Below are positions 17,391 to 19,451 of a stretch of DNA of 64,000 nucleotides, one piece after another. Each line of letters opens with the position of its first letter. Position 1 is the first letter of the stretch. Below the pieces are notes generated by a model. The model made no database searches and was not told where the DNA came from. It saw only the letters and a program-made list of their open reading frames with translations. The DNA comes from Halobaculum limi. GTDB lineage: Archaea; Halobacteriota; Halobacteria; Halobacteriales; Haloferacaceae. The stretch spans positions 620,001 through 684,000 of the forward strand of contig NZ_CP120468.1 of NCBI RefSeq assembly GCF_029490015.1. The letters are read 5' to 3'. A program made the translations under genes and the position numbers.

Positions 17391-17463
17391 GGGCGGCTAG
17401 TTCAGCGGACAGAACGCTTGGTTCCGGACCAAGAGGTCGGGGGTTCAAATCCCTCGCCGCTCG
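17391..17463 (+). tRNA. tRNA-Arg, anticodon CCG
   Basis: A complete 73-base cloverleaf can be folded. The acceptor stem is GGGCGGC/GCCGCTC with one G-U pair. The D stem is GTTC/GAAC. The anticodon stem CTTGG/CCAAG has loop TTCCGGA (anticodon CCG, reading CGG). There is a 5-base variable loop, T stem GGGGG/CCCTC, T loop TTCAAAT and discriminator G. CCA is not encoded and no intron is present. A degenerate copy of its last 22 bases lies about 1 kb downstream. Confidence 0.96.
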
Positions 17464-17582
17464 CTTCCTACCGGATTCACCGCGACGAGAGAAGCACCCC
17501 GTGAACTTCTGTCCCGTCTCGTGAACACTGTGAACGACCGAGGCCGTTCGGTTTCTCGCACGTCACACCGGCCACGCGCCGG

Positions 17583-18338
17583 TCAGGCGACCGCGTAACT
17601 CCCCAGGAACAACACCGCGTTGTAGACGCCGTGTGCGAGAACGGGCGCCGCGAGGTTACCGGTCCGCTCGTACAGCGCGCCGAACACCGATCCGATCACG
17701 GCGATGAGGAGCGCGCCAACGACGACGCCGGCGAGCGCGCCGGTGTAGTTCGTGAGATGGAGCGACCCGAACAGCAGCGCCGCACCCGCAACGGCGGCAA
17801 CCGGGCCGAACGTACCGCGAAGCCGACCCTGAATCACGCCACGGAAGAGGAACTCTTCGATTGGCGCGACCACCAACACGGAGGCGACCGCGAGCGCCAC
17901 GAGGAGTCTCGGATCTGCGGTCACCGCCCCTTCGATCACGGACCCGGGCGCCAGACCGAGCGCCGACACCACCGTGATCAGTCCGACTGCCGTTACGAGT
18001 GCAAGGACGGTCGCGAGAAGGATGTCACGCGCTTGGCGGGCGTCGGGGACGGCGACTGGAACGCGCAGACCTGTGCGCCACACGTACACCGCGCCGACAG
18101 CGAACAAGCCGAGTTGCCCGGCCAGCAGCAGACCGATGAACACGAGCGGCGACTGGACGTCGAGGCCGGCCAGAAACACCGGGATGGCAAACACGATGCC
18201 GGTGGCCAGCGAGGTGACGAACGCCGCGACCGTCAGGCCGAGAGCCACGGCGACAGCGCGACCCCGTCCGGCCGTCCGAGTCGATACCCGCTGTGCGTCT
18301 TCCCGGTCTAGGGTGTCGGAATCGGTGATACTGCTCAT
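17583..18338 (-). CDS. CPBP family intramembrane metalloprotease
   Basis: 251 residues with about eight membrane helices. The CPBP (CAAX protease/bacteriocin-processing) signatures are present: EEFLFRGVIQGRLRG, the second-motif segment FGSLHLTNYT and a late HGVYNAVLF, which supply the Glu and His residues of the membrane-embedded metal site. Family members process prenylated or other membrane proteins, or act in immunity to peptides. The gene is alone and points back toward the tRNA. It lies between the tRNA 3' end and its degenerate copy, so it may be cargo left from an integrated element. Confidence 0.9.
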   Translation of the reverse strand: MSSITDSDTLDREDAQRVSTRTAGRGRAVAVALGLTVAAFVTSLATGIVFAIPVFLAGLDVQSPLVFIGLLLAGQLGLFAVGAVYVWRTGLRVPVAVPDARQARDILLATVLALVTAVGLITVVSALGLAPGSVIEGAVTADPRLLVALAVASVLVVAPIEEFLFRGVIQGRLRGTFGPVAAVAGAALLFGSLHLTNYTGALAGVVVGALLIAVIGSVFGALYERTGNLAAPVLAHGVYNAVLFLGSYAVA

Positions 18339-18668
18339 ACCAGTATCGACGCTCGCTCACGATATAACTCAGCAGTGGCCCAGGCTATCACTCGTCGGAG
18401 AGCCGGATACGGATCGAGCAGTCGCGAGCGAACCCACCGTGGTTCAGATCCCTCGTCGCTCGGTTCTCGTCGACGGCCCCTCGATATCGCCGTCGAGTGG
18501 TCGGTATCTGTCAGCCGACATCGCTATCGTATCTTCACTGCCCGCTATCGGGCTGAGAAATAATGGCAAAGAGACATATTTACTGAACGACTATTCATAT
18601 GCCCATATTATAAACGATCAATTGTGATGATTGACGGCCTCCGTACCGGTGACAACTCCGGCCACGAT
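18339..18668. other. AT-rich intergenic spacer with tRNA-like remnant
   Basis: About 330 bases without a gene. It contains the tRNA-Arg 3'-end copy at 18441-18462. From about 18560 to 18625 it is strikingly AT-rich for this genome (CATATTTACTG, ATTCATATG, ATATTATAAACG). The last stretch probably holds the promoter of the iron-sulfur lipoprotein, with TATTATAAA near 18605. No coding signal was found. Confidence 0.6.
18441..18462 (+). repeat. Degenerate copy of tRNA-Arg 3' end (possible att scar)
   Basis: GGTTCAGATCCCTCGTCGCTCG matches the last 22 bases of the tRNA-Arg gene (17442-17463) at 20 of 22 positions; both differences are transitions. It has the same orientation as the tRNA and sits about 1 kb away. 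That is the geometry left by a tyrosine-recombinase element inserted at a tRNA 3' end. No integrase gene remains between the copies. Confidence 0.65.
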
Positions 18669-19451
18669 ATGTGGTGTCGGCGACACTACCTCGTCGCGAC
18701 CGTCGGAATCGCGGCGTTGAGTGGGTGCGGCGGGACCAGCGGGGGTGGGGAGACGACGAGCGAGACGGAGTCCCCGTCACCGGCGGGTGTCGAGCCCACG
18801 GAATCTGACGACGAAGACGGGGAAGAGGAGGAAGAACTCCCCGAGGGAGTCTCGGAGGAGGAGTTCGAATTCGGTCCCGTTCCCGACGTGTACCTGTCGG
18901 CGGTGTCGCTCGGCAACGAGACGCGCAACCCGGACGAGTTGTTCGCGAAGGCCGACGTGGGATTCGCAGAGTACGACGACGCGGTGGAGAACGAGGCTCA
19001 CCAACCGGGTACGTGCTGCGCCAACTGTGCCGACTACATTCCAGACAAGAACGGGGACGCATTCGGTGCCTGCGCGGAAGTCGAGGGGTACATCGGCGGC
19101 GAGGACTGGTGTACGGTCTACGAGTCGCTGCCCGAGCCCTCGGTTCCCGACGGGATGGCCGAATCCGACCTCGCGACGGCGGCCGTCCCGGAGGCGTACC
19201 GCACGGCCGACTCACAAGGCGGCGAGGAGCGGTCACCCGACGACCTCCTCTCGCAGGCGGACGTGAACCTGATGGAGTCCGTCGAAGCCATCGCGGACGG
19301 TGTCGCCCGGCCGGGCCAGTCTTGCGGTAACTGCGCGGAGTTCATCCCGGACGAGAACGGCGACGGTTGGGGCGCCTGCGCGAGAGTCGAGGGGTACATC
19401 GCTGCCGAAGACTGGTGTGTCATCTGGGAGCACATCACGGAAGAACTCTGA
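18669..19451 (+). CDS. Tat-exported lipoprotein with two HiPIP-like iron-sulfur domains
   Basis: 260 residues. A twin-arginine signal (CRRHYLVATVGIAALSGC, lipobox Cys at 20) is followed by an acidic linker and two related modules of about 85 residues. Each module has four cysteines with identical spacing, C-x2-C-x14-C-x12-C (C117, C120, C135, C148 and C219, C222, C237, C250). The context is CxNCAxxIPDxNGDxxGAC...VEGYI..EDWC. This is the [4Fe-4S] ligand pattern of high-potential iron-sulfur proteins. Two modules in one chain is unusual. Likely role: electron carrier on the outer face of the membrane. In-frame ATGs at 18624 and 18627 are possible but would place the twin arginines too far in. 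Confidence 0.8.
   Translation: MWCRRHYLVATVGIAALSGCGGTSGGGETTSETESPSPAGVEPTESDDEDGEEEEELPEGVSEEEFEFGPVPDVYLSAVSLGNETRNPDELFAKADVGFAEYDDAVENEAHQPGTCCANCADYIPDKNGDAFGACAEVEGYIGGEDWCTVYESLPEPSVPDGMAESDLATAAVPEAYRTADSQGGEERSPDDLLSQADVNLMESVEAIADGVARPGQSCGNCAEFIPDENGDGWGACARVEGYIAAEDWCVIWEHITEEL

Follow-up and report, generated by a model that had tools for sequence, protein, structure and literature searches.

A degenerate tRNA-tail repeat unit as the probable source of the tRNA-Arg(CCG) tail copy in Halobaculum limi

The tRNA-Arg(CCG) locus and its surroundings

The window, that is, the whole stretch of 64,000 nucleotides analysed here from the 3.48-Mb genome of Halobaculum limi, carries a tRNA-Arg(CCG) gene whose 3' end is found a second time further downstream, with a CPBP protease gene as the sole gene in between (Table 1). 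The end of the tRNA was taken as 17463, ARAGORN giving 17464. Bases 17442-17463 recur at 18441-18462 on the same strand with 20 of 22 bases identical and two transitions (19 of 21 for the portion corresponding to tRNA bases 53-73, at 18442-18462); this recurrence about 1 kb downstream, pointed out in an earlier note on this DNA, was confirmed by alignment, by a scan of the window and by shuffles. No third match to the 22-base tail with up to five mismatches occurs on either strand of the 64 kb, and when the 2 kb downstream was dinucleotide-shuffled 300 times, the best match reached four mismatches once and had at least six in every other shuffle, so that the scan and the shuffles together rule out a chance origin. 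Two other candidates were set aside: a tandem tRNA gene, since ARAGORN predicts a single tRNA per locus at 25 Arg loci and does not call one at any copy (locus L103 of this set being without any tRNA), and a virus carrying this tail, since there was no exact match in viral contigs and no match in a blastn search of the tRNA-Arg locus against phages.

Table 1. Features of the tRNA-Arg(CCG) locus, with positions counted in the window
Feature	Position	Strand	Basis
tRNA-Arg(CCG) gene	17391..17463	+	ARAGORN, Infernal RF00005 match; kept in 10/10 congeners examined
Block duplicated by the family, tRNA bases G53-N73	17443..17463	+	Per-position copy identity, 87 arrays
Intervening segment	17464..18345	.	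tblastn of window genes against 10 congener loci; absent there at this place
CPBP/Rce1-like protease (PF02517), 251 aa	17583..18338	-	Pfam E 4.8e-21
TCGACGCTCG, 9/10 identical to tRNA end, possible worn segment boundary	18346..18355	+	Weak: 24 such matches on the + strand of 64 kb
Probable degenerate tRNA-tail repeat unit (putative remnants of hairpin A, joint and hairpin B; ...ACCGTG)	18351..18440	+	Covariance model match
Right copy of tRNA-Arg 3' end, probable end of unit	18441..18462	+	20/22 identity
AT-rich stretch before HiPIP gene, outside unit	18531..18640	.	About 110 bp, 40% GC against 67.6% in the window

The tRNA and the gnd and ferredoxin genes upstream of it are present in 10 of 10 congeners, and the genes downstream vary among species (tblastn, 10 congener loci). 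In G005 trmB and GH3 directly follow the tRNA; the HiPIP lipoprotein gene of the window (18624-19451), whose HiPIP domain is preceded by a second similar cysteine-containing stretch, is common only to G007 among the ten; and CPBP is found at none of the ten loci by tblastn. In G004 (locus L065), about 1 kb of DNA with 48% GC directly follows the tRNA in a region of about 70% GC and may have been inserted recently at this site. Four of the CPBP-free congeners carry a downstream tail copy, situated 134 bp from the tRNA end in G007 (three mismatches), 116 bp in G008 (none), 205 bp in G001 (two) and 134 bp in G010 (one). A copy with six mismatches is found in G009 under a looser limit, and none is seen in G002 to G006 (5 of 10 congeners). 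Elsewhere in the whole congener genomes the Arg tail does not occur.

The earlier note had read the right copy as the scar of an integrase element that entered tRNA-Arg with CPBP as cargo and lost its recombinase, which would make 17464-18462 the remnant and 18441-18462 its attR. It is true that archaeal integrases typically duplicate tRNA tails, that the segment is missing from the congener loci, where the downstream genes are variable, and that the same genome holds a real 24.7-kb element in a tRNA-Lys gene, but we consider this reading very unlikely. Relatives free of the cargo would be expected to lack the downstream repeat, and the comparison of the 1-kb segment in relatives, proposed by the earlier note itself with a repeat left in place as the outcome against a scar, gave precisely that outcome: the copy persists in G001, G007, G008 and G010. 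Because these CPBP-free congeners keep it, the scar was rejected as the main reading. In addition, the A-to-G change (GTTCAGATCC) of the window copy is also present in the copy of G010, the stretch before the copy is unit-like and ends in ACCGTG, as in the repeat family described below, and the real elements examined sit inside, not around, the repeat units. The recombinase gene expected between the repeats of an integrase-element remnant was not found either, since CPBP is alone there, as had been stated, and no PF00589 integrase occurs in the 64-kb window, the PF00589 matches of this genome lying outside it. What survives of the integration-site reading is a tRNA 3' end duplicated at a site of repeated insertion, but not the attribution to one lost CPBP element. 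Likewise, an AT-rich stretch of about 110 bp, held to be foreign, does exist downstream of the right copy, but the directly adjoining DNA (18463-18530) has 60% GC, and the AT-rich stretch itself resembles a promoter region more than DNA of foreign origin.

The CPBP segment probably entered after the tRNA and ahead of a repeat unit that was already there, in line with the displacement of arrays by inserts at other loci. A segment of about 0.88 kb would have been placed there later, and the CPBP gene would therefore not be flanked by an att pair of its own; it is possible that a small insertion between the tRNA and the unit brought CPBP. The short match to the tRNA end at 18346-18355 lies where the edge of such a segment would be expected and is a weak hint. 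Within the genus, the CPBP protein has its nearest relative, 71% identical, on the second replicon of G005, and a search around the second-replicon CPBP relatives gave no Arg 3' copy within six mismatches. No relative with the tRNA, the unit and the flank but without the CPBP segment was found among the 10 congeners.

Repeat units behind haloarchaeal tRNA genes

In the genome carrying the window, a direct copy of the tRNA's own tail lies downstream of 8 of 44 tRNAs (Val-TAC, Lys-CTT, Phe, Val-CAC, Ser-GGA, Arg-CCG, Ser-CGA and Leu-TAA), and none was found upstream or inverted. The copy lies 83-154 bp away for seven of the eight and 977 for Arg-CCG. Downstream own-tail copies are also found at 12 of 30 tRNA loci from three other genera and at 9 of the 38 best-scoring tRNAs from 59 genomes of the class, drawn regardless of repeats. 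A larger set, biased by the many loci fetched by repeat, gave a copy at 63 of 178 tRNAs (two of 180 distinct tRNAs were left out for lack of 300 bp of downstream sequence), with none upstream, none inverted and none carrying the tail of another tRNA. A scan of species-representative genomes for the exact Arg tail returned 26 loci, 15 of which hold two or three same-strand copies about 100-137 bp apart; Haloarcula, Halorientalis, Salinirussus and Salinibaculum are among the genera with such multi-copy loci. The copies belong to a widespread family of folded units of about 100 nt behind many haloarchaeal tRNAs, each unit ending in the tail of its own tRNA.

Each unit is built, in this order, of a hairpin A, a joint midway in which part of the resident tRNA's T arm is repeated in inverted orientation, a hairpin B and the direct tail copy, and the median copy-to-copy distance is 98 nt. 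The copied block is sharp-edged, running from base 52/53 to the discriminator base 73: identity between copy and tRNA is 0.32 at base 51, 0.86 at base 52, 0.89-1.00 over bases 53-73 and 0.53 at base 74 (18 tRNA predictions were dropped by an acceptor/T-loop check and 211 kept, 87 of them with a copy, for 113 units). Where Gly tRNAs have TTCAATTCC, for instance, the joint is GGAATTGAA. Scored over 110 of the 113 units, the joint agrees with its own tRNA more closely than with the average of other tRNAs in 98 cases; against the best of ten swaps it fits better in only 48 and ties in 24, this advantage being limited because the T-loop is common to all tRNAs. In an alignment of 50 of the 70 units passed on (alignment A1), hairpin A contains CGAAC..GTGAG, the joint reads GAGGGATTTGAA and hairpin B contains GAGCGNAGCGAGC; a CGTG-like end then leads into the copy. 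Tandem G.A mismatches, motifs that are stable in RNA and in DNA, occur in hairpin A in 41/50 and 43/49 units and in hairpin B in 30/45 and 39/45.

The paired positions of the units covary. The structure was drawn by hand because RNAalifold gave zero pairs and no consensus structure on the raw alignment; it was taken from column pairs of the same sequences, which favours it in the slid control, and has 86.7% of its cells paired as against 76.3% with shuffling and 25-45% in slid versions. Double-change cells number 116 against 37 in the shuffled alignment, and compensatory changes are found in 15 of 23 pairs. Folding of the sequences gave a mean z of -2.9 for 94 units and -0.27 for 117 control stretches, each relative to shuffles; single-unit folds ranged from z -2.1 to -7.2 in seven of eight cases, the eighth being L155, a range without the copy (z +0.64). 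Covariation and strong folding would both suit a putative functional tRNA-trailer RNA kept by selection, in the manner of E. coli rtT, and we regard such a role as a credible possibility that falls short of probable. The joint would pair with the T arm of its own tRNA or with the downstream copy; the copy might free the tRNA, or the unit might tune maturation or yield a stable small RNA. Base pairing alone, however, fails to explain the conserved copy bases 66-73. No Rfam family other than tRNA was found in nine unit loci at E up to 0.05.

The units are tethered to tRNA genes. A covariance model (R1) gave 86 matches in four genomes, 74 of which lie within 600 bp 3' of a same-strand tRNA; by our own arithmetic such stretches make up about 0.4% of both strands. 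The tRNAs served number 6/44, 24/43 (G420, counted on 43 of its 44 tRNAs), 18/51 and 12/56. Among the 12 far matches, two are a displaced Lys array, one is a displaced Gly array and two lie beside tRNAs missed by the tRNA list (L336, L337), the others being unexplained or palindromic counterparts. A unit-like palindrome with a tRNA tail (TTCGAATCCCGGCACGCCCG; L338, G422:C1:515627-515748) has no tRNA gene within 1 kb. Across 100 genomes of the phylum, R1 found 5-34 matches in each of 14 of the 15 genomes of the same order and none in the 85 others, under strict filters through which weak relatives outside the order may have been missed. As a side observation, tRNA genes that are otherwise scattered form unusually dense clusters in Salinibaculum litoreum (about 12 in 2.8 kb, G422:C1:746390-749192) and in Halorientalis marina (about 7 in 1.6 kb, G421:C1:2918687-2920250), and these clusters are perhaps of viral origin.

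At the window locus, R1 aligns 18351-18462 at full length, over the span where hairpin A, joint and hairpin B would precede the copy. The match is weak: at 11.9 bits it is the top of the local 1.2 kb (E 0.012), and window-wide it ranks fifth of nine with a non-significant E of 0.62. The unit is worn and its joint is not clearly recognisable. On account of this full-length, if weak, match and of the A-to-G change common to G010, the right copy was read as the end of an old unit.

Turnover, empty sites and integrase elements

Under a limit of six mismatches, 97 arrays hold 126 units (one unit in 71 arrays, two in 23 and three in 3), and these fall into 104 clusters, which indicates quick turnover. 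In these arrays units are gained or lost whole, the exact point of change being tRNA base 73. At tRNA-Val(GAC), Halobaculum G006 has the tRNA, a unit and its copy, and then the same sequence that comes after the bare tRNA of G004 and G008; at tRNA-Arg(CCG), L127 has two units where L137 has none, so that empty and occupied sites can be told apart at single-base precision. Exact loss of a unit could also come from slippage between the 21-nt direct repeats. The absence of units from many tRNAs, including orthologous tRNAs of close relatives, together with their fast turnover, argues that they are dispensable and speaks against a trailer RNA under selection.

Modules are common to tRNAs for different amino acids and to different genera, with up to 36 nt exact between Arg and Asp, and copies and joints match the resident tRNA although the modules mix. 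At tRNA-Val(TAC), G007 and G010 have an A-to-C change in the tRNA and in the copy that is matched in the joint, and their joint retains an extra C also found in the window species. This concerted change suggests that pairing is under selection or that the hairpin undergoes internal repair. It is a further argument for the functional-RNA explanation, since in these orthologous units the joint changed along with the tRNA and the copy and kept its own extra C. It also bears on an element-free origin, in which replication slippage, hairpin template switching and gene conversion around the T-arm palindrome would have produced the repeats: the match to the resident tRNA extends to inverted as well as direct copies, and tRNA and copy change in concert between species (Phe, Val). 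We hold this origin to be unlikely, as hairpins A and B common to different tRNAs and genera, among them the Arg/Asp modules, are not expected from local copying.

Genuine integrase elements in these genomes have a longer att identity or their own attR, and they are located between the tRNA and the units. In tRNA-Arg(TCG) of G180 (L252, G180:C1:93205-107298), the attR of a 14-kb element contains about 43 tRNA bases and a unit lies just outside it. In the genome of the window species, the 24.7-kb element in tRNA-Lys(TTT) (C1:786900-811546, L332 and L333), outside the window, is accompanied at its far end by an integrase-like ORF of 353 aa, and beyond its attR come two units whose Lys tails are exact or have one mismatch; large ORFs inside this element appeared by eye to be ATPase-like and DNA methyltransferase-like. 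A 6-kb insert at tRNA-Gly of G420 likewise displaces a unit array. Since the elements lie between the tRNA and the units, they enter at the tRNA and push the arrays away.

Possible origin of the units and comparison with known systems

Taken with the congener loci, these results lead us to propose that, in all probability, the right copy closes an old degenerate unit of a class-wide tRNA-tail family, and that the CPBP segment arrived later. A new unit would arrive by insertion targeted to the tRNA 3' end, leave a 21-nt duplication and push older units downstream; the units would be non-autonomous and devoid of genes, and their folded strand, either ssDNA or the 3' trailer RNA of the tRNA, may be recognised by selection or by the moving machinery. 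With moderate confidence, we consider it the likelier origin that folded, non-autonomous units are inserted with tRNA 3' ends as their target; the enzyme for this, a free form of the unit and the RNA are all postulated. Its main rival is the trailer-RNA role, and the two are not exclusive.

The nearest known system is that of the rtT/RttR repeats of the E. coli tyrT operon (RF00391). In both, tandem units lie behind tRNA genes and end in the tRNA 3' end, and each E. coli repeat holds an inverted partial tRNA-Tyr tail, then a palindrome of the GAGCG..AGCGAG type, then the direct copy; in tyrT/tyrV of E. coli K-12 (L272), the inverted partial tail is GCGGGGAAGGATGAGAAG or a variant in the middle of the repeat, the three 178-bp repeats being near-copies that count as little more than two observations. 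This same order of parts in rttR adds to the case for a functional RNA. The classic tyrT papers are reportedly those of Rossi and Landy in 1979 and of Bosl and Kersten in 1991. The differences are that the E. coli spacing is 178 bp, that the copy there includes the encoded CCA, that the host is a gamma-proteobacterium and that the haloarchaeal family serves many tRNAs per genome. Moreover, the covariance model of RtT had no match at E up to 0.05 in the nine unit loci, where only tRNA was found, and the haloarchaeal model gave only 9-13 bits on the rtT repeats. Because the Rfam model match fails, the family was not filed as RtT; by analogy it may, at most, work like RtT.

REP/BIME-like repeats and MITEs are short, non-coding, hairpin-forming and scattered and mix their modules, as the tRNA-tail units do; what sets the latter apart is their tethering to tRNA 3' ends, with copies of the resident tail as flanks. 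The attL/attR sites of archaeal tyrosine integrases resemble the units by the direct duplication of a tRNA 3' end and by the insertion point at the tRNA end. In contrast to them, the units are gene-free, measure about 100 bp and have a constant block 53-73 and an inverted joint, and true integrase elements coexist with them, between tRNA and units. As far as the portions consulted go, two reviews (PMC8371274, PMC9897764) deal with fragments made by elements of 9-23 kb and not with such units, and the available part of the account of the Haloferax provirus Hvol-IV1 interprets the partial tRNA copies at its attR as attR only. No earlier account of such haloarchaeal units was found in the open PMC literature, a scope that mostly leaves aside subscription journals and preprints. 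It is tempting to go further and to see here a previously unrecognised haloarchaeal non-coding insertion system, in which a double-hairpin unit of about 100 nt would settle behind almost any tRNA and write direct and inverted copies of its target into itself at each move, E. coli rtT being a second, bacterial instance; we regard this bolder view as rather doubtful.

If our reading is right, some haloarchaea have a structured repeat, missing from standard annotation and from Rfam, behind as many as about half of their tRNA genes (24 of 43 in G420). It would explain many haloarchaeal tRNA fragments that are otherwise read as the scars of lost viruses, and it would change how attL and attR are drawn for haloarchaeal proviruses. 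The units would also offer a comparative system in which a tRNA, its copy and its complement evolve together, and the order of parts common to E. coli rtT raises the question whether Bacteria and Archaea have a process at tRNA 3' ends in common.
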